From contig JAJZAI010000017.1 in assembly GCA_021799495.1 (NCBI GenBank), positions 1 to 63,315 on the forward strand: a DNA stretch of 63,315 nucleotides, read 5' to 3'. This document shows, piece after piece, positions 2,245-15,712 of the stretch (within the stretch, counting starts at the first letter, position 1; every line of letters begins with the position of its first letter). The notes beneath the pieces are model-generated. The model was not told the origin of the DNA and made no database searches. It saw only the letters and a list, made by a program, of their open reading frames with translations. The stretch is from Deltaproteobacteria bacterium. GTDB taxonomy: Bacteria; Desulfobacterota; Binatia; Binatales; Binataceae. Position numbers and translations under genes: made by a program.

Positions 2245-2299
2245 GGGTTGCGCGGCGCCGCCCGTTTGCGCCGCGGCGCTGACGACAGGGCCCGGAATC

Positions 2300-2578
2300 A
2301 TGAAGCTTGTCGAAATGGATGAAGACGCGCGGACCGAACTGTTCGATGAGGTTGCGACGCTTGGCGCGATTTGCGCGTTGCGCGCATGGGACCGCTCGCA
2401 TCGGGTTCCGGCGCTGTTGTACCGACGGATGACCGACGAGGACGAACGCGATTTCAACGAAGTGCTTGCGGCCTACGGCGTCGAGTACGATCCGATGCTG
2501 AAGGCGGTGTTTTGGGCCGGAGCGGCGGGCGAAGACGAAGGATTGGCGGCGCTGATTCAGCGCGAGCGCGGCAACTGA
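2300..2578 (+). CDS. Small acidic hypothetical protein between ribBA and nusB
   Basis: A 92-aa open frame starting MKLVEMDEDARTELFDE, rich in Asp, Glu, Ala and Arg, with no signal peptide, membrane segment or cysteine pair. I do not recognise a family. It fills the position where ribH (and often ribE) is usually found in ribD-ribBA-nusB clusters, but shows no lumazine-synthase features. An upstream in-frame start at 2207 would overlap ribBA by 38 bases, so the ATG at 2300 is preferred. Good codon bias, and 30 bases to nusB on the same strand, suggest a real gene in the same transcript. Confidence 0.6.
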   Translation: MKLVEMDEDARTELFDEVATLGAICALRAWDRSHRVPALLYRRMTDEDERDFNEVLAAYGVEYDPMLKAVFWAGAAGEDEGLAALIQRERGN

Positions 2579-2608
2579 AGATTTCCGGAGCGAGGACCTC
2601 GAATCGTC

Positions 2609-3061
2609 ATGGGCGCCCGGCATAGCGGACGTGAAATTGCGCTGCAGGCGCTCTATCAGATCGACCTGAGCGGCGGCGCGTCGAACGACGATCTGGCGCT
2701 TTTTTTCGAGGCGTTCGCCGGCGACGACGGGGTGCGCAGGTTCGCTCGCGAACTGGTCGACGGAGTGCGCGGGCAACGCGCGGCGCTTGATCGGGAAATC
2801 GCCGCCGATCTCGAGCACTGGTCGATCGGCAGGCTCTCGCGCATCGATCACAACATTCTGCGGCTTGCGCTTTACGAACTGCTCCATATCGACGATGTGC
2901 CGGCGCGGGTGTCGATCGACGAGGCGATCGAACTGGCCAAGACCTACGGCGATCGCGACTCGGGCCGCTTCGTCAACGGCGTGCTCGATCATCTGGCGGC
3001 GCGGCTCAAGCTCAAGGACAAAGGTGAAGAGAGCAATCCGGCGAAAATCGGCGCGGTCTGA
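2609..3061 (+). CDS. nusB: Transcription antitermination factor NusB
   Basis: A 150-aa all-helical protein of normal NusB length. The N-terminal signature SGREIALQALYQIDLSG and the central SIGRLSRIDHNILRLALYEL, followed by a conserved stretch from about residue 108 with DEAIELAKTYG and the Ser-Gly-Arg-Phe-Val-Asn-Gly-Val motif, are diagnostic. NusB pairs with NusE (S10) on boxA RNA during rRNA antitermination. It lies just after the riboflavin genes, a common arrangement. The ATG at 2609 gives the canonical N-terminus. The stop is followed at once by an lptE remnant in another frame, which is abnormal (see next entry). Confidence 0.93.
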   Translation: MGARHSGREIALQALYQIDLSGGASNDDLALFFEAFAGDDGVRRFARELVDGVRGQRAALDREIAADLEHWSIGRLSRIDHNILRLALYELLHIDDVPARVSIDEAIELAKTYGDRDSGRFVNGVLDHLAARLKLKDKGEESNPAKIGAV

Positions 3062-3101
3062 GCGCGCCGCGCGCCGCGCGTTCGGCTCTATTGCCGCCGC
3101 C

Positions 3102-3353
3102 GCGCTAACCGACGAGCATACGCACAAGGTGCTCTGGAGCTCGCACGGAATCAGCGCGTCGCAAAATTTCCCGGTGGTCGCCGGCTCCGCGATTACGACC
3201 TCGCCCTATTTTTTGCAGCAGAACCTGCGCTCCCAGGATATCGCGCAGATGCCCGACATCCAGGTGGCGCAGACTCAGGAGGCGACCGCGCAGAATCAGC
3301 AGATGCGGCTTCTGGCGCAAAACCTCTACGACTCGATGAGCGAAGGCTTTTAG
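3102..3353 (+). pseudogene. lptE: 5'-truncated remnant of LPS-assembly lipoprotein gene lptE
   Basis: About 83 codons resembling the C-terminal end of LptE: LTDEHTHKVLWSS (beta strand ending in K-V-L-W), then a strand ending in Tyr-Phe, a helix with many Gln residues, and the terminal LLAQNLYDSMSEGF. LptE anchors and plugs the outer-membrane LPS translocon LptD. The lipoprotein signal, the lipobox Cys and the first half of the fold are missing: the recognisable frame begins only about 40 bases after the nusB stop and has no ATG start with a ribosome site. The position directly before holA is the usual one for lptE. I read it as a fragment left by a deletion or a mis-join, not as a functional gene. 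A short independent protein starting at GTG 3129 is a weaker alternative. Confidence 0.6.
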
Positions 3354-3395
3354 GCCTCGCCTCCTGACATAACATCCCGACGCTGCTGGCGAACG

Positions 3396-4457
3396 ATGGC
3401 TTCCGAAAATGCGCTGGGTTTTTTGCGCGCCGCCGATCGCGAGGCGCCGGCGGTGGCGCTGATCGCCGGCCCTCAGGAGTTCCTGCGCGAATATGTGCTT
3501 GACCTGCTGCGCGAACGCGCCGCGCGCGACGGCTTCGGCGCGCGCTCGTTTCAAATCGCGGGCGGCGACGGCTTCGGCGCGGCGGTGGCGGAGCTCGAAA
3601 GCGCTGATCTGTTCGCGCCGCGCCGCTTCGTCGCGGGCCGGGTGATGCGCGCGTATCGCGAGCGCGCCAGCGACGGCGACGGCGAAGAAGCGTCGGAAGC
3701 GTCAGGCGGGCGGGCGGGGCGCGCCGGCGGCGAGGCCGCGCTTGGCGCCGCGCTCGAACGGATTTCCGCCAACGTGCGCGCGGCGATTCTGTACGAACGC
3801 GACACGATGCCGGCGAAACTCAAGCGCGTGGTCGAGAAGCTGGGGCTGACGATCAATTGTCCGCGGCCGTTCGACAATCAGCTTGGCCAATATGCGGAGT
3901 TGTTCGCGCGGCGGATCGGGCTCAGGCTCGCGCCCGATGCGATCGACTTGCTGGTCGGGCGGCACGGCGCGGATTTGTCGGGGATCGCCAACGCGCTCGC
4001 GCGCGCGGCGATTCATGCGGAAAAGGGCGGTCGGATTGACGGGTCGGCGTTGGGCGAGGCGGCGGGCCGCCGCGCGCCGGAACCGTTCGAGCTGGCCGAG
4101 AGTATCGCGCGCGGGCGCGGCGCCGAAGCGGTCGCGATTTTCGATCGGGCGGTGGCGTCGGGCCGCGATCCGATCGAATTGTTGGGCGTCGAGATCATTC
4201 CCACGATGCGCCGGATACTGGCGGCGGCGTCAATTCTCGAACAGCGCAAGAATGCGGCCGAAGTCGCCCATGTCCTGGGCCTGCCGCCGTCGAGTCCGCT
4301 GGTGACGCGCGCGATCGACGGCGCTCGCCGCTTCGGCGCGCAGCGGCTCTTCGCGGCGCATCGCCGCGCCTGTCAGCTCGACGCCGGTTTCAAGAATGGA
4401 ACGCTGCGGGAACGGGAAGCGGCGATCGGCGGATTGTTGCTCGAACTGGGAGCATAG
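3396..4457 (+). CDS. holA: DNA polymerase III delta subunit HolA
   Basis: A 353-aa protein with the delta-subunit pattern. The N-terminal AAA-like domain contains the characteristic ALIAGPQEFLREYVLDLL opening and a region around SADLFAPRRFVAGR (residues ~68-85). A collar domain follows, with repeated leucine-rich helices and a basic C-terminus ending GGLLLELGA. Delta opens the beta sliding clamp during loading. There is no Walker A motif, as expected for delta. ATG at 3396 is supported by the family N-terminus. It sits between the lptE remnant and the convergent rpsT gene, an order common in Desulfobacterota-type genomes. An acidic/Gly insert at residues ~89-110 is lineage-specific. Confidence 0.88.
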   Translation: MASENALGFLRAADREAPAVALIAGPQEFLREYVLDLLRERAARDGFGARSFQIAGGDGFGAAVAELESADLFAPRRFVAGRVMRAYRERASDGDGEEASEASGGRAGRAGGEAALGAALERISANVRAAILYERDTMPAKLKRVVEKLGLTINCPRPFDNQLGQYAELFARRIGLRLAPDAIDLLVGRHGADLSGIANALARAAIHAEKGGRIDGSALGEAAGRRAPEPFELAESIARGRGAEAVAIFDRAVASGRDPIELLGVEIIPTMRRILAAASILEQRKNAAEVAHVLGLPPSSPLVTRAIDGARRFGAQRLFAAHRRACQLDAGFKNGTLREREAAIGGLLLELGA

Positions 4458-4495
4458 GCGGCGCGCGCGCCGCGAAAATCAATGCCGGGAATTTT

Positions 4496-4798
4496 TCAGG
4501 CGCCCGGTTGCGCCGCCGGAGCGGCATGATGCGCTTTGTGAAGCTGGCGGGAAAGCCGGGCGATTTTGCGCGACGCGGTGTTTTTCGGCATCGCGCCCTT
4601 GGTCGCGGCTTTGTTGAGCGCTTTCATCGCCTGGCGCAGGGCGGCCTCGGCGGCCTGCGCGTCGCTTCCCGCGATCGCTTCCTGAGCGTTCTTGGCGGCC
4701 GTGCGCATGCGCGTTTTGATCGCCCGGTTGCGCGCCTGGCGCTTGAGGCTCTGGCGATGACGCTTGCGGGCCGACGGATGGTCTGGAATATGCGGCAT
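4496..4798 (-). CDS. rpsT: 30S ribosomal protein S20
   Basis: A 100-aa highly basic protein with the S20 signature: HPSARKRHRQSLKRQARNRA near the N-terminus, then KTRMRTAAKNAQEAI, and a C-terminal helix with NTASRKIARLSRQLHK. S20 binds 16S rRNA in the 30S body. Normal S20 is 85-90 aa; the extra residues form an Ala/Pro-rich tail. It converges on holA with a 38-base gap. A GC-rich stem-loop lies in its leader and an IS-end repeat begins about 65 bases upstream, so its promoter region has been remodelled. Confidence 0.95.
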   Translation of the reverse strand: MPHIPDHPSARKRHRQSLKRQARNRAIKTRMRTAAKNAQEAIAGSDAQAAEAALRQAMKALNKAATKGAMPKNTASRKIARLSRQLHKAHHAAPAAQPGA

Positions 4799-4813
4799 AA
4801 CCAGAATTAACTA

Positions 4814-4854
4814 ACAGCCGGTTCGCGCCCGGTCAACCGGGCCGGAACGGCTGT
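4814..4854 (-). promoter_or_regulatory. rpsT leader: Stem-loop in the rpsT leader
   Basis: An inverted repeat, ACAGCCG (4814-4820) with CGGCTGT (4848-4854), encloses a second stem, CCCGG with CCGGG, around a TCAA loop. It lies 16-56 bases before the rpsT start on the transcribed strand. S20 is known in some bacteria to control its own translation, so a leader control element is possible. The sequence does not prove this, and the hairpin could instead be part of the IS junction. Confidence 0.35.
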
Positions 4855-4862
4855 TGCTGCCT

Positions 4863-4897
4863 GAATTAAGCCACTCTTCATTTCAAATTAAGCCACT
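4863..4897 (+). repeat. IS21-like end: two copies of a 13-bp gaattaagccact-type motif
   Basis: The motif gaattaagccact (4863-4875) recurs as aaattaagccact (4885-4897) with a 22-base period. Multiple 20-22-base spaced copies of such a motif are typical of IS21-family ends, where they serve as IstA binding sites. The same motif occurs three times at 6478-6532 in the same orientation. No istA or istB gene is present between them. This end abuts and truncates an IS1-type transposase remnant. Confidence 0.55.
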
Positions 4898-5203
4898 TAG
4901 CGCGGCTTGCTCGCTTTACCGCCGCGAACAGCCGCGCATCCCCGCATTCTTCGGGATCGCCAGTCTGAACGTGGCGCTGTTTCTTCGCGATGAAATTCCA
5001 CTGTTCGTCCAGCTCGATCAGGTCCACCTGAAGACCCGCATCATGCGGTCATGTAGCCCAGCGCAGCCATCGCCGACGCGGAGGCCAAGGCTCATAATCG
5101 TGTTGCGATTGACGCCCGTAAAACGCTCAGTGGAGCGAATCGAGCAACCTTCGGTCAGCGCCGCAACTACTTGGACCTGTTTCTCAAATGGTAGAACGTT
5201 CAT
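4893..5203 (-). pseudogene. IS1-family transposase remnant, frameshifted and truncated
   Basis: The N-terminus MNVLPFEKQVQVVAALTEG with the helix-turn-helix stretch STERFTGVNRNTIM and GLHDRMMR matches the N-terminal DNA-binding part of IS1-type transposases. The frame breaks around 5034 (one base lost) and stops as FRWT. After a one-base shift the homology continues as LQVDLIELDEQWNFIAKKQ and GDARLFAAVKRAS down to about 4893, where it runs into the IS21-like end. The first catalytic Asp region is present but the rest of the DDE domain is gone. It cannot make an active transposase. Confidence 0.8.
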
Positions 5204-5282
5204 CGAATCGTCTCTTCTGAAGCCATCGCGAACGTGCTACGCTTTGGTTGCTGGCCTTGCGCGGAGCTATTCGCGTGGGGTT

Positions 5283-5323
5283 AAGGCCCTGTTCGGGATT
5301 GCCGTCTCGGGCAGGGCCGCTTA
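5283..5323. other. Strong hairpin upstream of the zinc-ribbon gene
   Basis: GGCCCTG (5285-5291) pairs perfectly with CAGGGCC (5312-5318), and flanking TAAG/CTTA extends the stem with a two-base bulge. There is no T-tract, so it is not a standard terminator. It lies between the IS1 remnant and the zinc-ribbon gene and may be a relic of an element end. Just beyond it is the perfect palindrome TTACTGATTAGTAA core (5321-5334). Confidence 0.4.
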
Positions 5324-5379
5324 CTGATTAGTAATATACTTCTAGGGAGGCGCATTGTCAATACCCTCCGGTGATATAC

Positions 5380-5408
5380 TTGACGTAATATTGCGTTCGT
5401 ACCATACC
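5380..5408 (+). promoter_or_regulatory. Possible promoter of the zinc-ribbon gene
   Basis: TTGACG (5380-5385) resembles a -35 box and is followed after 17 bases by CATACC (5403-5408), a weak -10 box. Transcription would then start almost at the ATG at 5416, giving a leaderless or nearly leaderless mRNA. No Shine-Dalgarno sequence precedes the ATG, which agrees with that reading. Confidence 0.35.
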
Positions 5409-5419
5409 ATTACGTATGG
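5402..5419. promoter_or_regulatory. Operator-like palindrome over the start codon
   Basis: CCATAC (5402-5407) and GTATGG (5414-5419) form a perfect 6-bp inverted repeat with a 6-base spacer. It covers the presumed -10 region and the ATG of the zinc-ribbon gene. A protein bound here would block transcription or ribosome access. The small protein itself is an obvious candidate for autoregulation, but that is inference. Confidence 0.4.
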
Positions 5420-5553
5420 CACGAGTTAAATTGTCGGGCTTTAGATGCGAGCGTTGCGGGCACGAATGGGTGCCGCGCAACCCCAACGAAGAACCGCGAG
5501 TTTGCCCGAAATGCAAATCGCCCTATTGGAATAAACCTCGGCAAAAGGCATAG
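5416..5553 (+). CDS. 45-aa zinc-ribbon protein
   Basis: A microprotein, MARVKLSGFRCERCGHEW at the start, then a short spacer and VCPKCKSPYWNKPR. Two CxxC knuckles (C11/C14 and C31/C34) spaced by 16 residues make a single zinc ribbon. The Tyr-Trp-Asn-Lys-Pro tail is basic. Similar stand-alone ribbons are common in archaea and scattered in bacteria, mostly without known function; nucleic-acid or protein binding is the usual guess. The codons are less GC-biased than those of its neighbours (ttg, ttt, aga, aaa), suggesting a transferred gene. It lies in the accessory island and converges on the tRNA-like gene 7 bases away. It has an operator-like palindrome at its start. Confidence 0.72.
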   Translation: MARVKLSGFRCERCGHEWVPRNPNEEPRVCPKCKSPYWNKPRQKA

Positions 5554-5560
5554 AAGAGAT

Positions 5561-5638
5561 TGGCGGGCTCGGCCAGATTTGAACTGGCGACCATCCAGGT
5601 TCGAGCCGGGCGCTCTGTCCAGACTGAGCTACGAGCCC
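5561..5638 (-). tRNA. tRNA-Arg-like gene with an abnormal anticodon arm
   Basis: A full tRNA outline: acceptor GGGCTCG/CGAGCCC, discriminator G, encoded CCA, D arm GCTC/GAGC, and T arm GCCAG-TTCAAAT-CTGGC. The body resembles tRNA-Arg, but the anticodon arm is odd. With stem CCCGG/CCTGG the loop is only six bases (CTCGAA), one T short of the CTTCGAA loop of tRNA-Arg(TCG), and the stem has a C-T mismatch. With a seven-base loop (CTCGAAC) the anticodon would be CGA (Ser), with a C-A mismatch and no serine-type long variable arm. It may be a decayed tRNA-Arg or a specialised one. A TATAAG box lies upstream. Confidence 0.65.
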
Positions 5639-5654
5639 GCCGATTTTCTTGCTC

Positions 5655-5660
5655 CTTATA
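5655..5660 (-). promoter_or_regulatory. -10 box of the tRNA-Arg-like gene
   Basis: On the minus strand the hexamer reads TATAAG, one base from consensus, and ends 16 bases before the tRNA 5' end, a suitable distance for a short leader. A recognisable -35 box 17 bases upstream is poor (TTACTG). The presence of a -10 box suggests that the tRNA-like gene can still be transcribed. Confidence 0.4.
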
Positions 5661-5849
5661 GAATGTGCGTACTAATCCAGTAACAGAGCGCGCGATCTTC
5701 TTGCGCGGTCGCCATAAAACCGCACAGATACACCTCACCACCGGCTCGCGCCCCCGATCAGCGCAAACCGGAATTGTTGCGGGCTGGGGATCAATCCGGT
5801 AGGCTCAATCTGTCCTAAACGGAGCCTGCCATCAGGCAGCCAACTCTGA

Positions 5850-5881
5850 AACCGGGTCGTTAGCGCGACCCGGTTTTCTTT
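5850..5881. terminator. Rho-independent terminator, possibly bidirectional
   Basis: AACCGGGTCG (5850-5859) and CGACCCGGTT (5866-5875) form a perfect 10-bp stem with a 6-base loop. On the plus strand it is followed by TTCTTTC. It sits directly after the stop codon of the winged-helix gene on the minus strand, where it would also act, with a shorter T run. Confidence 0.75.
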
Positions 5882-6297
5882 CAGTTCATTACGGGCACTA
5901 TCTTTCCATTCTCTCCAAAACTCCCAACGTATTGCGCTGCTCGCCGCCCTTTTCCGACCACCGCCTGTTTAGCGCGACCGGCTTTAATCAAACGCTGGAG
6001 AGCGCCCCATACAGTTGAGCGATTACTGATCTCCAGTTGCGCCGCCAAAATCGGGACGGTCCAGCGTTTCTCGGGATGCTGGCGGAACAAAGCTTCGATC
6101 CGGTTATCTATTGTGTCGGTATCGCCGCCCCCGACGGGCACAACGACAGGCGGCTGTTCTGGAGAATCATGGGGCACATGCGGTTGTGCCGGAGTTGCTT
6201 CTGCGAGCATTTCCTCGACCAGTTCGATGGCCTGGAGCTTCCGCTCGTAATCCGTACGTAGCCTTTCTTTCAGTCGAGCCACTTCATTTTTGTCCAT
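5881..6297 (-). CDS. Winged-helix DNA-binding protein of unknown role
   Basis: A 138-aa protein in three parts. Residues 1-33 are a charged helix (KERLRTDYERKLQAIELVEE), likely coiled coil. Residues 34-58 are a Pro/Val linker. Residues 64-125 look like a winged helix (DNRIEALFRQHP, then ILAAQLEISNRSTVWGALQR, then a basic wing). The layout suits a small dimeric DNA-binding regulator. ATG at 6297 has GGAG 12 bases upstream and is preferred over the longer ATG at 6330. It ends at a strong terminator and lies within the IS-bounded island. I do not recognise the exact family. A transposition or plasmid-type accessory regulator is possible. Confidence 0.6.
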   Translation of the reverse strand: MDKNEVARLKERLRTDYERKLQAIELVEEMLAEATPAQPHVPHDSPEQPPVVVPVGGGDTDTIDNRIEALFRQHPEKRWTVPILAAQLEISNRSTVWGALQRLIKAGRAKQAVVGKGRRAAQYVGSFGENGKIVPVMN

Positions 6298-6477
6298 CGC
6301 GCGCTCCACTTGATGGACATTATGGCGCAAGTGGCGCTACGCTGGATAGTGGGGCGCCGCTCGGGTCGTTTTGTTTATCCACAGGGGGCGCGACCAATAG
6401 CGAACCGCTGAAGCTCAAGGCGAATTGACCCTGACCCCGCGCGAGATCAGCTAGGAACACCCAATTAAAGCATCGCC

Positions 6478-6532
6478 GAATTAAGCCACTCACGGATCCA
6501 AATTCAGTCACTCGGCCTCAAACTAAGCCACT
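6478..6532 (+). repeat. IS21-like end: three copies of the gaattaagccact-type motif
   Basis: gaattaagccact (6478-6490), aaattcagtcact (6500-6512) and aaactaagccact (6520-6532) repeat with 20-22-base spacing, as at 4863-4897 and in the same orientation. The last copy encodes the final residues and stop of MazG on the minus strand, so the element end is fused to the mazG 3' end. Because the two ends are direct rather than inverted copies, they are not the two tips of one simple IS. Confidence 0.55.
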
Positions 6533-7348
6533 ACCGGATGGCGGTGGATCTGCGGTTTCGGCGCGTTTCGCTTCGTTCCAGAGCGCGTCGAGTTGTTCGG
6601 GCGGGAGCGTGCGTAAATCGAGTCCGCGCGCGGCCGCGATGCGTTCGACCCGGCCGAAGCGGGCGGTGAACTTGTCGCAGGAGCGGCGCAGCGTCTCTTC
6701 GGCGCGATGGCCGATGAACCGGGGCGCGTTCGCCAGCGCCAGCATCATGTCGCCGATTTCGGCCGCGGCGCCGGCCAGATCGTCGGCGGCAAGGGCGCCT
6801 TCGACCTCGTCCATCTCTTCGCGCACCTTCGCGAGCACCTCGTGGATATCCCGCCAATCCATTCCGGCTTCACGCGCACGCGCCCCCAATTTTTCGGCTC
6901 GGGCGGCGGCTGGCAACGACCGCGCGACGCCGTCGAGGGCGGATTTGGCGCCGGCGGCCGCGCGTTCGGCCTGTTTGATCCGCTCCCAATTCGCGACGAC
7001 CTCGGACGGCGTTCCGGCTTGCGCGTCCGCGTACACGTGCGGATGGCGCCGCACGAGCTTGTCCGCCGCCGCGCGCATCACCTGCGCGATGGTGAAGCGT
7101 GCGCCCTCCTCGGCGATCGCGCCGATCGCGAGCGCCTGCGCGATGACGTCGCCCAGTTCGTCAACGATCGCCGGCGTGGAGTCGCGCTCGATCGCGTCGA
7201 GGGCTTCATAAGCCTCTTCGACCAGATGGCGGCCGAGGCTTGCGATGGTCTGCTCGCGATCCCACGGGCAGCGGCGGCGCAGTTCGCGGATAATGCCGAA
7301 AAGAAGGGAGAATTCGCGCGCGGCGCCGTCGTCAGCATGGTCGGCCAT
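6518..7348 (-). CDS. mazG: Nucleoside triphosphate pyrophosphohydrolase MazG
   Basis: A 276-aa protein with two MazG-type helical repeats. The first carries CPWD (27-30) and the metal-binding EEAYE (44-48) with DELGD (63-67). The second repeats a similar EEMDEVEGAL ... EIGDMML pattern. MazG hydrolyses (d)NTPs to NMP and pyrophosphate, which clears non-canonical nucleotides and can lower (p)ppGpp. ATG at 7348 gives the typical short N-terminus. The last codons (SGLV and stop) lie inside an IS21-like end repeat, so the native C-terminal residues were probably replaced. The active sites are far upstream and unaffected. An esterase gene follows upstream on the same strand. Confidence 0.9.
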   Translation of the reverse strand: MADHADDGAAREFSLLFGIIRELRRRCPWDREQTIASLGRHLVEEAYEALDAIERDSTPAIVDELGDVIAQALAIGAIAEEGARFTIAQVMRAAADKLVRRHPHVYADAQAGTPSEVVANWERIKQAERAAAGAKSALDGVARSLPAAARAEKLGARAREAGMDWRDIHEVLAKVREEMDEVEGALAADDLAGAAAEIGDMMLALANAPRFIGHRAEETLRRSCDKFTARFGRVERIAAARGLDLRTLPPEQLDALWNEAKRAETADPPPSGSGLV

Positions 7349-7389: not shown

Positions 7390-8046
7390 CTAATCGCGGC
7401 GGCGCATCACGCGTTCTTCGAGGAAGCGCGAGAGGTCGCGGATGCCGTCGGCGGAGACCTCGTGACCGCAATCATATTCGCGCGCGGTCACGTCGATGCC
7501 GAGGCCGCGCAACGCCTCGACCGATTTGCGCGCACGCGCGATTTCGATCGCCTGATCGGCGCGGCCATGCTGCACCAGCGCCGGCATCCGGCCCAGCGCG
7601 TCGCGGTCGCCGGCCAGTGCGGTCAGCCGGTCGGGGAACGCCGTGGCGATGCCGACCAGGGCGGCGAACCGCTCCGGCCATCGCACGGCGAGGCTGTACG
7701 CCATCATCCCGCCCTGACTGAAACCGGCGGCGACGACGCGCGCGCGATCGACAGGGTAGCGCGCGCACGCTTCGTCGATAAATTCGCTCAATGTGGCGAC
7801 GGCGGCGTCAACTTTGTCGGGATCGGGCTGCGACCCGGGCCGCATCGAGTACCATCCGTAGCCGTTGATCGCGCCGATTTCGACCTCCACCGCTCCCTGC
7901 GGACAGATTACCAGGAAGCTGCCGCCCGCGATGAAAGGCGCAAGCCCCTGCAAGTCCATCGCGTTGGAGCCCCATCCGTGCATCGCGAAAATGGTCGGAA
8001 AAGGTCCGCTCCCCGCGGGTTCATAGGCGCAGTGGACAAGTTTCAT
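7390..8046 (-). CDS. Alpha/beta-hydrolase, carboxylesterase or phospholipase type
   Basis: A 218-aa esterase of the short carboxylesterase/dienelactone-hydrolase type. It has the oxyanion segment FAMHGWGSNAMDL near residue 20, the nucleophile elbow GFSQGG (Ser110), an acid at HGRADQ (Asp164) and CGHEVS (His195), a complete Ser-Asp-His triad. No signal peptide is visible, so it is probably cytoplasmic. The substrate cannot be told from sequence; small carboxylic esters or lysophospholipids are usual. ATG at 8046 begins the recognisable fold; longer in-frame starts upstream lack homology. It lies 41 bases before mazG on the same strand and is divergent from the glycosyltransferase fusion gene. 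Confidence 0.82.
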   Translation of the reverse strand: MKLVHCAYEPAGSGPFPTIFAMHGWGSNAMDLQGLAPFIAGGSFLVICPQGAVEVEIGAINGYGWYSMRPGSQPDPDKVDAAVATLSEFIDEACARYPVDRARVVAAGFSQGGMMAYSLAVRWPERFAALVGIATAFPDRLTALAGDRDALGRMPALVQHGRADQAIEIARARKSVEALRGLGIDVTAREYDCGHEVSADGIRDLSRFLEERVMRRRD

Positions 8047-8156
8047 CGGAAGAAGCCTCCGGGAGCGCATCTTAGACCCGGCTTGGCCAAATCCGCCAGC
8101 GAAACGATCGCGAATCGTCACGCTGGACGGCGGCCGGCGTTCATCTACGCTGGGCG

Positions 8157-11100
8157 GTGCGCTACCCTGCCCGGAGCGTCTCGGCGTTGATGCGCGAATG
8201 CGGCGCGAAAGGCGGCGTGAGCCGGAAGAAAATTTCAACGGTGTTCGCACGGAATCGATTGGCGCGGCGATCGGCGCGGGTTGGCCTGTTAATCGCTGGC
8301 GGGATCGTCGCGTCAGCGGCGAAGGCGCTCGCGGATGGCGGAGATCCTGATGCCGCCGTCACGGGCAAGAGCGCCGGGGTCGCCGCGGGCCTAATCCTCG
8401 CCGCGCTGATTCTTTACGGATTATGGCTGCTGGCCGCTCCGTTGCTTCGGGCCGACGATCGCGGGCCGTATCGGGCGTTGGCGGTGCTGGCCGCGTTGTT
8501 CGCGATCAAGGCGCCGATGCTGTTTCTTACGCACGGCTTCGCCACCGATATCGGCACGTTCGAGTCGTGGGCGCTCAGAATCGCGACACTCGGTCCCGCC
8601 CAGACTTATTCGCAAGGCTATTTCCTCGATTATCCGCCCGGCTATCTCTATTGGTTGTGGGCGGCGGGCGCGGCGGCGCGGGCCTTCGGCGCGACCGATG
8701 GCGCTTGGCTAAAGGTTTGGATCGAGACGCCGCCGCTGGTCGGCGACCTGCTGCTGGCGTTGGCCGTTTTTCTTTTCGTGCGCCGGATGAATCGGCCGCG
8801 CTCGGCATGGGCCGCGATGCTGCTGATCGCGCTTAACCCGGCGTTCCTGTTCGATTCGGTGGTATGGGGCGAGAACGACGCTCCGTTGGCGCTCGCGATG
8901 TTTCTCAGCGCGGCGTTAATGGCGGACGGCGAATTTGAAATCGGATGGGGCGTCGCGGCGCTGGCGGCGCTGATGAAGCCGCAGGGGCTGATGTTGCTGC
9001 CGGTGCTGGGAATCTGGACGCTGCCGCATTTCGAGGTGCGGCGATGGTGGCGGGCGGCGCTGGCCTTCGGAGCGGTTGTCGCAATCGGCGTGGCGCCGTT
9101 CCAGTTCGGCCATGGATGGGATCTGCTGCCGCAACTCTACCTATCCGGCGCCGCCTATTACCATGAGACTTCGGTTAATGCTTTCAATCTGATGGCGTTG
9201 CTGGGCGGGCTGCGCAGGCCGGATTCGACGCTCGTGTTCGGCGTGTCGTGTTTCAAGCTGGGGATGGCGCTGCTGGTTCCGCTTTATCTTTACGCCGCCT
9301 GGATTGTTTGGCGTTCGCCTAATCAGCGAAATCTGCTCTTCGCCAGCTTCATGACGATCTTCGGATGTTTCGTGCTGGCGCCGCGGATGCACGAGCGGTA
9401 TCAGTATGCGGCGCTCGCCTTTGCCGCGCCGCTGGCGATAGCGGAACCGGCGATGCTCGCGATCTTCGGACTGTTGACGGTCACTTGCTTAGTAAATCTT
9501 GCCTATGTCCTGCATATTCTGAACACCGTGGTTTTTATGAACCCCAGGGATGCCGTCGCGATGATCACCGCCGTGGCGAACGTGGCGATTTTTGCCGGTG
9601 CGATCGTTTATGACTCGCGCCGCCATCGCCGGACGGCCAATGCCAATGCTCCGGTGCGGAGCGGCGCCGGCGCGGCGGCCGATCCGGGCGCATCAGGCGG
9701 CGCCAGCGGCGTCGAAGATTGGCTCGATGCGCGCTTCGGCTGGCTCAAACGCGGCCTCGATTTGCCGCCGCCGACAAGCGAATTTATGGCGCCGTTCGCA
9801 TGGCGTACGCTCGATTCATTGCTTTTGTTCGTGCTTGTCGCCGGCGCCGGCCTCCTGCGTTTCTGGCATCTCGGTCATCCGCGGGAACTCGTGTTCGACG
9901 AAGTGCATTTCGTCGGTCAGGCGCGCCATTACCTGCACCATGAGCGCTTTCTGGATCCCCATCCGCCGCTCGCGAAGCTGCTTACCGCCGTCGGTATCCT
10001 GATCTTCGGCGACCATTCGTGGGCGTGGCGGCTGGGCACGGCGACGCTGGGCACGGCGATGGCCGGCGTCACCTACCTGCTGGCGCGGCGGATGTTCAAA
10101 TCGCGGCTGGCGGCGACCCTCGCCGCGAGTTTCATCGCGCTCGACGGGTTTTTTATCGTCGATTCGCGGATCGCGGTAATCGATATCGTTTATCTGACCT
10201 TTGCCGCATTTTCCTATTTATTCTTGTTCCGCCTGATGCAGGATCCGCAGCCGAACCGACGGCTCTGCAACCTGCTTTTCATGGGGGTCGCGCTCGGTCT
10301 CTGTTTGGGATCGAAGCTGTACGTGCCGGGAATCGTCTTTCTCCTGACCGGCGGCTTTGCGCTGTTCGCCGTGATGCGCCCGGACGGTCCCGGCGCGCCC
10401 ACGCTCGCGCCGGCTGTGCGCAACCGGCGGGCGCTAGGCGCCGCGTTTATCCTTGGTTCGCTCGGCGGAATTTTCTATCTGGCCTGCTTTATTCCGCATT
10501 ACACGCTCGGATGGTGGGGCGGGATCAGCGACCTGTTCCACTACTACAAGGACGTGATGTGGTACGAAAAGAGCGTCGCCACGGCGACCCATCCGTACGC
10601 CTCGCCGTGGTGGAGCTGGCCGCTGATGCTGCGGCCGGTCGCGTACTGGCAGAACTTTCCCGCCCATGGAAACATCGTCGCGACCATCTGGGGCGCGGGG
10701 AATCCGGTGCTGTGGTGGGGCGTGATTCCGGCGATCACGATCGCGCTGATTCGCGTGCTCGAGCGGCCCGATATCGTCCGCGCGTTTGTCGTCGCCGGCT
10801 ATTTCGCTTTTTGGGTTATCTGGATTCCGATCGGGCGGATATTGTTCCTCTATCATTACATGCCGTCGGTCTATTTCGGCTATCTGGCGCTGGCTGGAAG
10901 CATGACCGACTGCTGGCGCGGCGATGCGGAGTGGTGGGAAACGATCGCATTTTTGTTCGCGTTGTTCGCGCCGATCGTGATTGGGCTTGGCCATATCGCG
11001 TCGGTGATGGAGCCCGCGTTCATTCCGGTACGCTATCGGTTGCTGGCCGGCGTTCCGATTTGGATCGCGCTCGCGCTCGGATGGGCGGTCACGGCGCGCA

Positions 11101-11261
11101 ATCGCAAAGCCTGCGGCCGGCTGACTTGTATCGCGTATTTGGGCTGCGCGGCGGCGGCGACTGTTTATTTCATGCCGGTATGGCTTGGCACGCCGATCAC
11201 GCGCGCCGGCTACTACGCACGGATGTGGTTCCAGGGGCCGGGGCTGAGAAACTGGATTTGA
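8157..11261 (+). CDS. Two-module GT-C glycosyltransferase fusion (GT57/87-like plus GT39/PMT)
   Basis: A 1034-aa polytopic membrane protein made of two GT-C modules. The N-terminal module (about residues 40-480) has ~10 membrane segments and an acidic loop motif DIGTFESW (near 131) with DYPPGYLYWL, as in dolichol/polyprenyl-phosphate-dependent mannosyl- or glucosyltransferases. An Ala/Gly-rich linker (~485-545) follows. The second module is a PMT-type enzyme with VFDEVHF (~578) and DPHPPLAK (~598), then a HYMPS segment. PMT enzymes move a sugar from a lipid phosphate to Ser/Thr of secreted proteins. GTG 8157 or ATG 8190 could be the start. The next gene overlaps its stop. Such modules normally come as separate proteins; I infer sequential or paired glycosyl transfer on the periplasmic side. 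Confidence 0.8.
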   Translation: MRYPARSVSALMRECGAKGGVSRKKISTVFARNRLARRSARVGLLIAGGIVASAAKALADGGDPDAAVTGKSAGVAAGLILAALILYGLWLLAAPLLRADDRGPYRALAVLAALFAIKAPMLFLTHGFATDIGTFESWALRIATLGPAQTYSQGYFLDYPPGYLYWLWAAGAAARAFGATDGAWLKVWIETPPLVGDLLLALAVFLFVRRMNRPRSAWAAMLLIALNPAFLFDSVVWGENDAPLALAMFLSAALMADGEFEIGWGVAALAALMKPQGLMLLPVLGIWTLPHFEVRRWWRAALAFGAVVAIGVAPFQFGHGWDLLPQLYLSGAAYYHETSVNAFNLMALLGGLRRPDSTLVFGVSCFKLGMALLVPLYLYAAWIVWRSPNQRNLLFASFMTIFGCFVLAPRMHERYQYAALAFAAPLAIAEPAMLAIFGLLTVTCLVNLAYVLHILNTVVFMNPRDAVAMITAVANVAIFAGAIVYDSRRHRRTANANAPVRSGAGAAADPGASGGASGVEDWLDARFGWLKRGLDLPPPTSEFMAPFAWRTLDSLLLFVLVAGAGLLRFWHLGHPRELVFDEVHFVGQARHYLHHERFLDPHPPLAKLLTAVGILIFGDHSWAWRLGTATLGTAMAGVTYLLARRMFKSRLAATLAASFIALDGFFIVDSRIAVIDIVYLTFAAFSYLFLFRLMQDPQPNRRLCNLLFMGVALGLCLGSKLYVPGIVFLLTGGFALFAVMRPDGPGAPTLAPAVRNRRALGAAFILGSLGGIFYLACFIPHYTLGWWGGISDLFHYYKDVMWYEKSVATATHPYASPWWSWPLMLRPVAYWQNFPAHGNIVATIWGAGNPVLWWGVIPAITIALIRVLERPDIVRAFVVAGYFAFWVIWIPIGRILFLYHYMPSVYFGYLALAGSMTDCWRGDAEWWETIAFLFALFAPIVIGLGHIASVMEPAFIPVRYRLLAGVPIWIALALGWAVTARNRKACGRLTCIAYLGCAAAATVYFMPVWLGTPITRAGYYARMWFQGPGLRNWI

Positions 11262-12019
11262 TTCGCGACAGAGTCATCCGCAACGCCGCCGCGATGGCGA
11301 TTGTCGCCGCGGCGCTCGCTTGCGCCTGCGCCAGCGCGCGCGCCGGGTCGCGCAATCTCCTCGCCAACGGCGACTTCCGGCGCGGCTCCGGGGCCACCTG
11401 CGACGGCTGGCGCACCGATGCATGGATTCTCGATCCGACGGCCACCACTTACGCCTGGATCGCGCCGCAAAACGGCGAGCCGGCGGAACTCGAAATCGAT
11501 ACCCGCCGCGACAATGACGCGCGCTGGCTGCAAACCGTGCCGTTGGGACCGGGATGGTATTACGCGAGCGTCGAGGCGCGCACCGAGGACGCATCCCAAT
11601 ATTTCACCGGCGCGACGATTAGCGCGATGGAAGACGGGATCATGTCGCCCGATCTGCGCGAAACCACCGACTGGCGGCGAATCGGCTTTTATTTGAAGAT
11701 CGGCCCGCACGGCGCAGACGTCGATTTCGCGCTGCGGCTCGGCGGCTATATGAATCTCACGCGCGGCAAGGCGTTTTTCCGCGCCGCGCGAATCGAACGG
11801 ATCGCGGCGCCGCCGCCCGGCGCGACGCCCATCTACGACCTCGACGCGATTCGGCGCGCGGAAGTCACGGGTCCGATCGGACATGCGTGGTCGCTCGTCG
11901 CCACCTTCATGGGATTCGCGCTGATGGGCGTCTGGGGATGGAATATTTTCCGGCGCACGATTCCAACCCGGGCGGAGGCGTCCAGACGGCCCTGGCGCGC
12001 TAATCGGCGGAGGGTTTGA
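11258..12019 (+). CDS. Membrane-anchored secreted protein with a carbohydrate-binding-like jelly roll
   Basis: A 253-aa protein. With the TTG start at 11258 it begins MIRDRVIRNAAAMAIVAAA and ends its signal at ASARA, a normal signal peptide with a positive N-region; ATG 11294 would lose those charges. The mature part opens NLLANGDFRRGSGATCDGW, the typical start of galactose-binding/CBM4_9-like beta-sandwich domains, and runs to about residue 190. A single membrane helix near the C-terminus (SLVATFMGFALMGVWGW) and a basic tail follow. The start overlaps the stop of the GT-C fusion gene, so translation is coupled. I infer a glycan- or glycoprotein-handling partner of that enzyme. Confidence 0.7.
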   Translation: MIRDRVIRNAAAMAIVAAALACACASARAGSRNLLANGDFRRGSGATCDGWRTDAWILDPTATTYAWIAPQNGEPAELEIDTRRDNDARWLQTVPLGPGWYYASVEARTEDASQYFTGATISAMEDGIMSPDLRETTDWRRIGFYLKIGPHGADVDFALRLGGYMNLTRGKAFFRAARIERIAAPPPGATPIYDLDAIRRAEVTGPIGHAWSLVATFMGFALMGVWGWNIFRRTIPTRAEASRRPWRANRRRV

Positions 12020-12536
12020 AGCTCGGACGATGTTCGAGCTTCGCCTGCTTCTCGATCTGTTTCAGCAGAGCCGCTTCGGCGACGCCGCGCGAAACGCATC
12101 GCTCGGCCGTCAACGGCCTGATCGGCACGTGCAATTGCGACGTATAGGCGGCCTGCACGGCTACCGTGCTGGCTTCGTCGCCGGCGGGCTTGACCGTGAA
12201 ATTGTAAACTGCGGTCGCGTCGTCGTTGGGCTCGGCGTTGTATTTCGCCGCCACCGTGCGCAGCTTGCCGCAATCGGCCTGCTTGAGGCTGAATCCGCCG
12301 GGCGCCTCGCTCTCGATCACGCCGTTATTCGGGTCTTCGGCGATGATCCTGAAATCGTTGCGGGTAATCACGGAGTGGACGGCATTCCACGCCAGATCGA
12401 AGGGTATCGCTATTTGCGCCCGACGATCGGACGCGGGCGGCGGCGCGGCCGTCGGCGGATAGAAACATCCGCTTGCCGGCAGCGCGAAAACGAACGCCAT
12501 GGCGATTCGGAATTTGCTCACGCAATCTCGAAGCAT
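12000..12536 (-). CDS. Lipoprotein of unknown function (BamC-like in form)
   Basis: A 178-aa protein with a lipoprotein signal: MLRDCVSKFRIAMAFVFALP then ASGC (lipobox, Cys near residue 24). A short Pro-rich linker follows, then a domain with IPFDLAWNAVHSVITRNDF and DPNNGVIESEAPG, which resembles the repeat fold of BamC-type and other outer-membrane assembly lipoproteins. A conserved Cys pair may form a disulphide. The C-terminal helix is basic. It overlaps the convergent upstream gene by 20 bases and is divergent from yebC. Its role is not recognised beyond envelope location. Confidence 0.68.
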   Translation of the reverse strand: MLRDCVSKFRIAMAFVFALPASGCFYPPTAAPPPASDRRAQIAIPFDLAWNAVHSVITRNDFRIIAEDPNNGVIESEAPGGFSLKQADCGKLRTVAAKYNAEPNDDATAVYNFTVKPAGDEASTVAVQAAYTSQLHVPIRPLTAERCVSRGVAEAALLKQIEKQAKLEHRPSFKPSAD

Positions 12537-12669
12537 AGCAGAATAGGGCGTCAAAGCCGCGTTTTTGACCGTTCCTGAGCGCGCGGGCGACTCCCAACGC
12601 CTGCGCCCGATGTGCTAACCTCGCATTGATTCAGGGGCGCGGCCGGTGCGCGCTCCGGAGGCTTAAGCG

Positions 12670-13422
12670 ATGTCCGGTCATTCCAAGTGGAGCTCAATCA
12701 AGCATAAGAAGGCGGCGCGCGACGCCAAGCGCGGCAAGGTCTTCACCAAGCTGATCAAGGAAATCACCATCGCCGCGCGGCTTGGGGGCGGCGACCCGGG
12801 AGCGAATCCGCGCCTGCGCACGGCGATTGCGGCCGCCAAGGCCCAATCGATGCCCAACGACAATATCGATCGCGCGATCAAAAAGGGCACCGGCGAGCTG
12901 GGCGGCGGCACGCTTGAAGAAATCACCTACGAAGGTTACGGGCCGGCCGGCGTCGCGATTATCGCAGACGTCTTCACCGATAACCGCAACCGCGTGGTCG
13001 CCGAACTGCGCCACATGTTCTCGCGGCACGGCGGGAACCTGGGCGAATCGGGATGCGTCGCGTGGATGTTCAAAAAGCGCGGCGTGATCGCGATCGACAA
13101 GGGCGCCGCCGACGAGGACAGGCTGCTCGAACTCGCGCTCGAGGCCGGCGCCGACGACGTCGTTAGCGAAGACGATGGCTTTCAGGTCCTGACCGGGACG
13201 GAGAGCTTCAGCGCCGTGCGCGACGCGATCGAAAAGGCGGGAATCCCGATCGCCAGCGCCGAGATCGCCAAGTTGCCCGAGAACACCGTCAAGGTATCGG
13301 GCAACGCCGCCGAGCAGGTGCTTAAGCTGATGGAGGAGCTCGAAGATCACGACGACGTGCAGGGCGTCGCGGCCAACTTCGAGATGGACACCGACGAGAT
13401 GGCGCGGCTCTCCGCCGCATAA
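12670..13422 (+). CDS. yebC: YebC/PmpR family protein
   Basis: A 250-aa protein of exact family length. It opens [20 protein letters not shown], then [18 protein letters not shown] and [20 protein letters not shown], all diagnostic, and has the [20 protein letters not shown] segment. YebC proteins were long called transcription regulators; recent work shows that members aid ribosomes at proline stretches. ATG at 12670 has a weak GGAGG 11 bases upstream. It directly precedes ruvC-ruvA-ruvB, a widely conserved order. Confidence 0.96.
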
Positions 13423-13477
13423 AATTTTCCGGAAACACGCCGGGCGGCCCGCGGCGAATGCAGGGCGGCGGCGGGGG

Positions 13478-14020
13478 ATGAGGATGCGGGTGCTGGGAAT
13501 CGATCCCGGAAATGCGGTTTGCGGATGGGGGTTGATCGAGCGCGCGGGCGCGCCGCGATTCCTGGCGGCGGGTACGATCCGGCCGCGCGCCGCGATGCGC
13601 GGCCCGGCCCGGCTCAAGGAAATTCACGACCGGCTGCTTGAACTGCTCGACCGCTATCGGCCCGATGCCGTCAGCCTCGAGCGCAGTTTCGCGGCGCTCA
13701 ACGTGCATAGCGCGTTCAAGCTCGGCGAGGCGCGCGCGATGGCGATGCTGGCGGCGGCGGAGCGCGCTCTCGAACTGTTCGAATACAATCCGACCGACGT
13801 CAAGCTCACGATCGCCGGCTTCGGCCGCGCCGACAAGCGCCAGGTCAAAGACATGGTGCGCCGCACGCTCGGTCTCGATGAGCGCGTCGCGCTTGCCGAC
13901 GACGCTTCGGACGCGCTCGCGATCGCGCTCTGCCACGCCTTTCGCGCCCGCGCGCCCCGGCCCGAACCGCCGCCCCGCGCGCGGCCGGTCCGGCGAGCGA
14001 AGGCGGCAACCGCGCCATGA
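13478..14020 (+). CDS. ruvC: Holliday junction resolvase RuvC
   Basis: A 180-aa RuvC with all four acidic catalytic positions: Asp9 (LGIDPG), Glu68 (SLERSFAA), and the Asp pair in ADDASDALAIALCH (Asp142 and Asp145), followed by His153. It cuts four-way junctions in the RuvABC complex. The Arg/Pro-rich tail after residue 155 is longer than in E. coli. The stop overlaps the ruvA start as ATGA, so the genes are translationally coupled. ATG 13478 and ATG 13484 are both possible. Confidence 0.95.
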   Translation: MRMRVLGIDPGNAVCGWGLIERAGAPRFLAAGTIRPRAAMRGPARLKEIHDRLLELLDRYRPDAVSLERSFAALNVHSAFKLGEARAMAMLAAAERALELFEYNPTDVKLTIAGFGRADKRQVKDMVRRTLGLDERVALADDASDALAIALCHAFRARAPRPEPPPRARPVRRAKAATAP

Positions 14021-14631
14021 TCGCCTCGATCGCGGGCCGCGTGCGTAGCCGCGGGGCGGGCCGGATCGTGCTCGAAGCGGCCGGCGTCGGCTACGAAATT
14101 TTCGTGCCGCTGACGACCTATTACCGGGTTCCCGGCGTGGGCGCGGCGGCCGAGCTCGAGATTCGCCAGGTGGTGCGCGAAGACGCGATCACGCTGTACG
14201 GATTCGCGACGCCGGCGGAAAAGCAGGCGTTCGATCTGCTGCTCGGCGTGCAGCACGTCGGCCCGCGCCTGGCGCTCGCGATCCTGTCGGTGCTTCCGCC
14301 CGACGAGCTGGCGGGGGCGGTCGCCGACGGCGACGTCGATCGAATCGACGCGGCGCCCGGCGTCGGGCCGAAAGTCGCCGAGCGGGTGGTGCGCGAATTG
14401 CGCGACAAAATCGGCGACCTGGCGCTGCATGCCGCCGAACGTCCTGCGGCGGACCGCGCGACCGGCCACGCCAACGGAATCGCGGACGACGCGCTCTCGG
14501 CGCTGGTCAATCTGGGCTACAAGCCGGTCGAGGCGCGGCGCGCGCTCGACCGTGTCGCGTCCGCTTCGGCCGCTGACGGAATCGAAGGGCTGATCAGAAA
14601 AGCGCTGGCGGTGCTGCTCGGTGAAAAATAA
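14017..14631 (+). CDS. ruvA: Holliday junction DNA helicase subunit RuvA
   Basis: A 204-aa protein. Domain I is an OB fold ([11 protein letters not shown] ... GVGYEIFVP). Domain II has two helix-hairpin-helix motifs ([16 protein letters not shown] and [16 protein letters not shown]). A variable linker follows, then domain III ([20 protein letters not shown]), which contacts RuvB. RuvA holds the junction in a square form for branch migration. It overlaps ruvC by four bases and ruvB by eleven, so all three are one operon. Confidence 0.96.
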
Positions 14632-15712
14632 ACGTGCGAAAGAGAATGTCGCTCCGCCGTCAGAAGAAATCGCCGACGGCGACGGCGCCGAACGACTCGA
14701 AGCGGACGAAACGCGGCTCGCGGCGCCTCACGAAGACGAGGGCGAACGCGCTTTCGATCTCTCGCTGCGGCCGCGCACGCTGGGCGACTTCGTCGGCCAG
14801 GAGCGGCTCAAGCGCGTGCTCGGGATGTCGATCGAGGCGGCGCGCCAGCGCGGCGAAGTGCTCGACCATGTGCTGTTCTCCGGGCCGCCGGGGCTTGGCA
14901 AGACTTCGCTCGCGCATATTATCGCGCGCGAACTGGGCGTGAACCTGCGCGCGACTTCCGGTCCCGCGATCGAGCGGGCCGGCGACCTCGCCGCGATCGT
15001 CAACGATCTTGACGGCGGCGACGTGCTGTTTATCGACGAGATTCATCGCCTCGCCCGGCCGGTCGAGGAGGTGCTCTATCCGGCGATGGAGGATTTCGAG
15101 CTCAATATCGTCGTCGGCAAAGGTCCCGGAGCGCGCTCGATGCGGCTGGCGGTAAAGCCGTTCACGCTGGTCGGCGCGACCACGCGCTCGGGCCTGTTGA
15201 GCGCGCCGCTGCGCGATCGCTTCGGCCAGCATTACCATCTCGATTTCTACCGCCGCGAGGATTTGACCGAAATCGTGAGCCGCTCCGCGAGCCTGCTCAA
15301 TGTGCGTCTGGCTGGCGACGGCGCCGACGAAATCGCCGGCCGCTCGCGCGGCACCCCGCGCATCGCGAACCGCCTGCTCAGGCGGGTGCGCGATTACGCG
15401 CAGGTCAACGGCGCCGCGGCGATCGCGCGCGAGGTCGCGCTGGGCGCGCTCGAGCTGCTCGAGATCGACGCCTGCGGCTTCGACCGGATGGATCGCGCGA
15501 TTCTCGCGGCGATTATCGACAAGTTCGACGGCGGTCCGGTCGGCGTCGAAAGCCTTGCCGCCGCGGTCGGCGAAGAGGCCGACACGATCGGCGAAGTTTA
15601 CGAACCCTACCTTTTGCAGGAGGGCTTCGTCGCGCGCACCGCGCGCGGCCGGGTCGCGACGCCGCGCGCCTACGCGCATCTGGGGCGCGTCCGGCGCGGC
15701 GCGCTGCTGTGA
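14621..15712 (+). CDS. ruvB: Holliday junction branch migration ATPase RuvB
   Basis: A 363-aa AAA+ motor. It has the Walker A GPPGLGKT (residues 88-95), Walker B with DEIH (139-142), sensor 1 [18 protein letters not shown] with the arginine finger region, and a C-terminal winged helix ([26 protein letters not shown]). RuvB hexamers pull DNA through the RuvA-held junction. The first ~45 residues are a long acidic extension, more than most RuvB have. The start is GTG at 14621, overlapping ruvA. Confidence 0.96.

Follow-up and report, generated by a model that had tools for sequence, protein, structure and literature searches.

What does a bacterial protein do that carries two complete GT-C glycosyltransferase (GT) modules in one chain, and is such a chain real? 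The question is raised by a gene in contig JAJZAI010000017.1 from a member of the Binataceae (class Binatia), of which a stretch of 63,315 nucleotides (the window) was analysed. A sequence-only reading of the window had proposed two GT-C modules in one polypeptide, and the frame bears this out. The stretch at 8157-11261 on the forward strand translates without a stop into one intact two-module GT-C protein of 1034 residues, with DIGTFESW, DYPPGY, an Ala/Gly-rich linker, DEVHF and DPHPPLAK, while on the opposite strand the frame is interrupted by several stops. In a relative that is 92-93% identical (L006), the third codon of the sequence corresponding to 8157 is an in-frame stop, and another relative (L003) has a stop immediately 5′ of the aligned GTG. 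Because of these stops, and since the window and L002-L006 share a start candidate at 8241, a GTG (ATG in L002), translation more likely begins there, giving 1006 residues. Residue numbers are counted from 8157 throughout. The host genome is a 3.43 Mb draft of 89 contigs, and it contained no second copy at E ≤ 0.01 with either the whole protein or a profile of the N-terminal module (N-module). A local profile picked up a weak 49-bit frame in the same genome, in the locus of a GT2 gene (L058), that resembles protein O-mannosyltransferases (PMT).

The fusion is real and is conserved in two phyla. Five named records hold near full-length relatives with 58-92% identity, and in a genome of the same genus (G004, locus L005) the frame is of identical length. 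A match was found in 40 of the 57 genomes in our set of relatives and in 60 of the 148 genomes of the class, all within three families: the family of the window (40 of 41 listed genomes, G009 being the one without a match) and two others, f6 (14 of 14) and f7 (6 of 6). These family denominators count listed genomes, and the 68 genomes of the class that lack a match are outside that listing. Each of the 60 genomes has a frame that crosses the junction, as judged by ranges and frame lengths, and some of these frames end at contig ends (for example in G011, G022, G029, G391, and G040). An even sample of the window's own phylum gave matches in 7 of 297 genomes, six of them from the family of the window. 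A fused relative with about 31% identity, L008, belongs to a second phylum. With L008 as the query, 128 of 148 genomes of that phylum matched, many weakly, and at least 98 of the 148 had one match or frame spanning both modules.

Could the chain be an assembly or frameshift artefact that joins two genes? The draft state of the host genome and the origin of the named relatives, which are records of metagenome-assembled genomes, would allow it. However, the frame is single in 30 distinct rows on the Binataceae side, a count that keeps L008 apart and in which two rows are truncated by contig ends, and it is single in the second phylum as well. No frameshift was found among these sequences, so this explanation is refuted and we give it practically no weight.

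Split versions were also looked for, and they exist in relatives (L047, L046, L050, and L051). Standalone N-modules occur in L044, L046, L047, L052, L097, and L098. Trees of the N-terminal and C-terminal modules both separate a Binatia side from a second-phylum side; the C-terminal tree as drawn is a quick version. Because the standalone copies of each phylum are nested within fused ones in both trees, most of them look like later separations from fused proteins. The exception is the L047 pair, whose split genes have very long branches near the midpoint root and are placed unsurely. The trees and the motif counts below omit duplicate loci (L009-L012, L014, L039-L043, L045, L048, L075, L099, L100, and L109), the fragment L007, and L058. 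The second phylum is represented by 26 rows, the 20 best loci and six from other contigs, and is thus biased towards good matches. The frames of L102 and L105 have long N-terminal stretches that resemble stop-to-stop overhang and show no match to the carbohydrate-binding module (CBM) domain described below.

The second module had been read as PMT/GT39, and profiles agree. Pfam PF02366 (PMT) matched at 3.1e-23 (83 bits against a cut-off of 22.7, best stretch 619-781) and PF16192 (PMT_4TMC) at 9.1e-19 (68.2 bits against 32.4, best stretch 795-1026), both within residues 602-1026. A search of PDB sequences returned four PMT sequences only, all in the second half of the protein, and the DE motif (D581 E582) aligned with the DE of 9i5k. 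The NCBIfam equivalog for bacterial PMT, NF058602, was not reached (62.5 bits against a cut-off of 800 bits). On these profiles the C-terminal module is a PMT-family module and is not the NF058602 equivalog. It resembles MtPMT, a bacterial protein O-mannosyltransferase of GT39, in its PMT and PMT_4TMC domains, the DE motif, HPP, and a conserved late arginine. Unlike MtPMT, which is a single module, the window protein has a second GT-C module in front and an accompanying CBM-like protein.

The identity of the N-module is less sharp. It had been called ALG6- or GT87-like; relatives of this kind were recovered by profile, while the scores are weak and the module of the window itself stays below the Pfam cut-offs. 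Pfam gave nothing above cut-off in the first half of the window protein, which had no match to PF03155 (ALG6/ALG8) or PF09594 (GT87). When 48 N-modules were scanned singly at E ≤ 0.01, 26 matched GT87, 15 ALG3, nine Alg6_Alg8 (best 1.5e-5), and seven PMT_2, with one match each to STT3, PIG-U, and DUF6427. We take all of these families except DUF6427 to be GT-C or GT-C-like. The N-module of L008 reached 22.1 bits against PF09594, whose cut-off is 25, and NCBIfam gave scattered matches only (best 1.7e-7, in one of the 48). A profile of 29 N-modules found no match among PDB sequences. A profile of 48 rows found glycosylphosphatidylinositol (GPI) mannosyltransferase 1 (23gf) at 1.4e-5, in the middle of the module only (positions 122-258), and yeast Alg6 (GT57, 6snh) at E 0.012 for the chain over almost the whole length (positions 57-363). 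In the latter alignment the D after the first transmembrane (TM) segment, LDYPP, K, and HE columns of Alg6 are in register with the N-module. Both of these relatives are single-module enzymes, unlike the window protein.

PimE, which presumably belongs to GT87, differs in being a single module with a glycolipid acceptor. Passages of PMC12041525 describe it as a bacterial periplasmic enzyme that uses polyprenyl-phosphate mannose, a point of likeness. There its base D58 and K195 are required, mutants of H321 and H322 are weakened, and K195 and H322 sit at the phosphate. By analogy, we infer that D131, K274, and H412 of the window protein would be the counterparts of D58, K195, and H322. The N-module may thus be described as ALG6-, GPI-mannosyltransferase-, or PimE-like, and is placed in none of these families.

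Both modules have kept their motifs. The motif counts cover 63 distinct fused proteins, 37 from Binatia and 26 from the second phylum. In the N-module, D131, D158, Y163, W237, D241, K274, R410, H412, E413, R414, and Y415 are invariant in all 63, P161 is present in 62, and Q276 in 55. In the PMT half, D581, E582, H602, P603, P604, and K607 are invariant, R894 is found in all 59 proteins that reach it, and R671 in 61. Both modules, whose acidic motifs were said to be retained in the window protein, thus keep their key acidic residues across the fused proteins, and an alignment-based search for loss of active-site residues found none among them. Standalone N-modules are looser, with D158 in three of six and Y163 in four of six. 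The ratio of nonsynonymous to synonymous substitution rates (dN/dS) in nine pairs was 0.075-0.26 for the N-module, 0.06-0.29 for the PMT module, and 0.24-1.95 for the linker, by a simple counting method and with few sites in the linker. Purifying selection acts on both modules and far less on the linker. The fused protein looks active.

In Binatia a third part accompanies the fused pair. The gene directly downstream has a probable TTG start that overlaps the GT stop codon in the window, L002, and L006. Its product had no Pfam family up to E 1. The model of its domain superposed on the hyaluronan-binding module 4d0q (Z 17.5, 2.6 Å over 144 residues) and on CBM4-2 and CBM16 (Z about 15), at 12-20% identity. 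The model thus predicts a beta-sandwich of the CBM4/16/61 type. Because cyclases, phage tailspikes, and portions of other proteins share this fold, carbohydrate binding is putative. The likeness to CBM4, CBM16, CBM61, and 4d0q is one of fold, while the identity is low and the protein of the window is tethered to the membrane next to a glycosyltransferase. The CBM gene directly follows the fused GT gene in all 30 assessable loci of the family (33 in all, of which L027, L033, and L049 end before its position). In f7 (L053, L055) and f6 (L107, L108) the CBM domain forms the N-terminal part of the GT chain, ahead of the N-module, and in the two f6 loci this triple fusion (CBM-N-PMT) is followed by a second CBM copy as a separate gene. 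The window protein retains signal-peptide-like and TM segments with no CBM domain between them. In L047, from another class (G331), positions 1487-6723 hold a CBM-PMT gene, a GT2 gene, and then a separate N-module. Within the family of the window, the PMT-only copy L050 and the N-only copy L046 adjoin or carry a CBM domain. Because the same parts are shuffled there, being fused, adjoining, or split, there is good evidence from gene arrangement that the CBM domain and the GT modules work together in Binatia and its phylum. The L047 CBM-PMT gene shows a further weak F5/8-type match (E 0.019).

Where would the sugars come from? According to passages of two papers, GT39 and GT57 enzymes consume lipid-phosphate monosaccharides (PMC10920833), which GT-A/GT2 enzymes produce (PMC11754754). 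A GT2 gene adjoins the fused gene in L008 and L076-L078 (a fragment in L079), lies about 3 kb from it in f7, and stands between the split genes in L047. The GT2 proteins scanned resemble lipid-phosphate-sugar synthases, below NCBIfam cut-offs. The genome of the window has 19 PF00535 places, 18 of them above cut-off. Its best match to the GT2 enzyme of L008 is on another contig (41.6% over 219 residues) and resembles dolichol-phosphate-mannose synthase and undecaprenyl-phosphate formamido-arabinose transferase.

The order of the modules bears on topology. ALG6, ALG8, ALG3, and PIGM have been proposed to have an even number of TM helices and POMT an odd number, as given in a passage of PMC6801728. 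With an even module first and a PMT second, the first loops and sites of both would therefore lie on the same side of the membrane. The linker opens with an arginine run (RRHRR), as expected of a cytoplasmic loop, and a hydropathy plot is too coarse for helix counts. The linker would thus be cytoplasmic and both sites periplasmic.

Taking the fusion, the retained motifs, the selection on both modules, and the association with the CBM domain together, we see an even chance that the gene encodes a two-step, two-site O-glycosyltransferase of the inner membrane, acting in the periplasm, in which the PMT module adds the first sugar and the N-module the next. This would agree with the disaccharide on a protein that the sequence-only reading had suggested as one possibility. 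The sugars, acceptors, order of steps, topology, and role of the CBM-like protein would then be as follows. The C-terminal PMT module would take a sugar, most likely mannose, from polyprenyl phosphate and attach it in the periplasm to Ser or Thr of exported proteins. The N-module, resembling ALG6, GPI mannosyltransferase, and PimE, would add a second sugar from a second lipid-phosphate sugar onto the first, and the cytoplasmic linker would keep both sites at the periplasmic face. The membrane-anchored CBM-like protein from the next gene may work with the pair, perhaps holding the glycan or the acceptor.

The two GT-C enzymes might instead be independent of each other and share a chain for the sake of co-expression or localisation, with the PMT module acting on proteins and the N-module on a lipid or an envelope polysaccharide, as PimE or SccM does. 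Among solved structures, the closest relatives of the N-module are GPI mannosyltransferase 1 and Alg6, which act on lipid-linked acceptors, and standalone N-modules exist. The acceptor of PimE is a glycolipid (passage of PMC12041525), and SccM and SccQ of Streptococcus mutans act on polysaccharide (passage of PMC11754754). On the other side, the 60 matching genomes of the three families keep the fusion, as do at least 98 of the 148 sampled from the second phylum, and most standalone copies look derived; both points favour coupled action without proving it, and we regard independence as rather unlikely. It is improbable that the N-module is a non-catalytic scaffold or an acceptor-binding part of the PMT. 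PMTs act as dimers (passage of PMC7759382), so a fused GT-C partner could be structural, and PIGU is a GT-C-like subunit with a different role (passage of PMC12041525). However, D131, D158, K274, and H412 are invariant in the 63 fused proteins, and the dN/dS of the N-module is nearly as low as that of the PMT module. The suggestion that the lipid-linked donor used by one module is a product of the other, raised by the sequence-only reading from the presence of two modules in the same chain, did not find support. GT39 and GT57 use lipid-phosphate monosaccharides that GT-A enzymes make, as cited above, and the genome has its own GT2 genes at the 19 PF00535 places, which leaves this suggestion very improbable.

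Several results weigh against the two-step O-glycosyltransferase. No N-module scanned passed a curated Pfam cut-off, and the stretch aligned with Alg6 has an independent E-value of 0.023, under the HMMER inclusion mark. A full-length AlphaFold2 model from seven rows had a mean predicted local distance difference test (pLDDT) of 42.7 and a predicted template modelling score (pTM) of 0.30, at which neither the fold of the N-module nor the spacing of the two sites is visible. At position 239 the window protein has E, whereas most relatives have the Q of WGQxD there. Position 676, which by position and without alignment to MtPMT is the candidate second acidic residue (D176 of MtPMT), is D in 38 of the 63 fused proteins and E in the other 25; in MtPMT, only weak activity remains after the D176E change. 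The N-module can apparently change its job, as some standalone copies have lost D158 or Y163. No GT2 donor synthase lies beside the gene in the window, the only PF00535 place of the contig being near 60.5 kb; two GT2 queries found none in the two f6 loci and a gene in only five of 26 second-phylum loci, many of the remaining 21 having a flank of 1.5 kb. None of the 26 second-phylum loci yielded the CBM domain, which is thus not a universal partner; that phylum would seem to do without it or to use something else.

Features of the fused window gene and of the gene that follows it (table below) are given on the coordinates of the window.

Table 1. Positions of the fused glycosyltransferase gene, its parts, and the downstream CBM-like gene in the window
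Feature	Position	Strand	Size or basis
Whole open frame, two-module GT-C protein	8157..11261	+	1034 aa
Same gene from the likelier start	8241..11261	+	GTG; aligned codon GTG or ATG in five relatives
Signal-peptide-like segment, residues 42-60	8280..8336	+	hydropathy; cleavage putative
TM segment, residues 79-97, N-terminal to first GT-C loop	8391..8447	+	hydropathy
N-terminal GT-C module, residues 74-484	8376..9608	+	sequence profiles
D131, putative catalytic base of N-module	8547..8549	+	63/63 fused proteins
DYPPGY, residues 158-163	8628..8645	+	aligns with LDYPP of yeast Alg6
KPQ, residues 274-276, putative phosphate-binding lysine	8976..8984	+	profile alignment, PimE
RMHERY, residues 410-415	9384..9401	+	aligns with QVHEK of yeast Alg6
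Linker, residues 485-548	9609..9800	+	starts near RRHRR; Ala/Gly-rich, length-variable, fast-evolving
C-terminal PMT/GT39 module, residues 549-1034	9801..11258	+	Pfam and PDB sequence matches; NCBIfam equivalog below cut-off
DEVHF, residues 581-585, PMT first-loop acidic motif	9897..9911	+	DE in 63/63 fused proteins
DPHPPLAK, residues 600-607	9954..9977	+	H602, P603, P604, K607 in 63/63 fused proteins
Downstream gene	11258..12019	+	signal peptide, CBM-fold domain, one TM helix; probable TTG start overlaps GT stop (TTGA)
CBM-like beta-sandwich domain	11345..11872	+	model pLDDT 86.7

Upstream of the GT gene, a divergent gene (7390-8250, reverse strand) resembles by eye a secreted hydrolase of the esterase or polyhydroxybutyrate-depolymerase kind. 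Convergent with the CBM gene is a small lipoprotein-like frame (12000-12554, reverse strand) that has relatives in neighbouring genomes and no Pfam family above cut-off. The overlapping forward frame at 12030-12578 (P0003) looks spurious. Further downstream, YebC- and Ruv-like genes were recognised by eye (12670-15712, forward strand), and in the distant L008 a YebC-like gene also comes after the fused gene and GT2.

We found no description of a PMT joined to another GT-C in the open-access literature searched, subscription papers being outside its scope. The nearest published fusion that we found is WadA, a bimodular GT25-GT121 O-antigen ligase. According to passages of PMC10920833, this bacterial chain likewise joins a GT-C-fold enzyme to another glycosyltransferase, and the authors interpret the arrangement as coupled action. 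The second enzyme there is a globular GT25, whereas both partners in the window protein are GT-C. SccM and SccQ of S. mutans, with SccN and SccP, also carry out GT-C steps on the periplasm side fed by GT-A-made lipid-phosphate sugar, but they are separate proteins and their acceptor is a polysaccharide (passage of PMC11754754).

More tentatively than for the window gene itself, and at somewhat less than even chances, we propose that the fused protein represents a widespread bacterial enzyme of O-glycoprotein assembly in at least two phyla. One chain would start glycans on exported proteins with its PMT module and extend them with its ALG6/PimE-like module, as a counterpart of enzymes that are separate elsewhere, and in one lineage a fused or tethered CBM-like domain would hold the growing glycan. 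By analogy, the CBM fold linked to the enzyme in Binatia may be a bacterial equivalent of the additional luminal domains that eukaryotic PMTs carry. A passage of a 2024 study of actinobacterial PMTs (PMC11727336) states that the enzymes that elongate the mannoglycan are not currently known there and that GT-4 members are suspected. A PMT fused to an intact second GT-C is a direct, testable candidate for the glycan extension step in other bacteria, and one that differs in kind from the suspected GT-4 enzymes.

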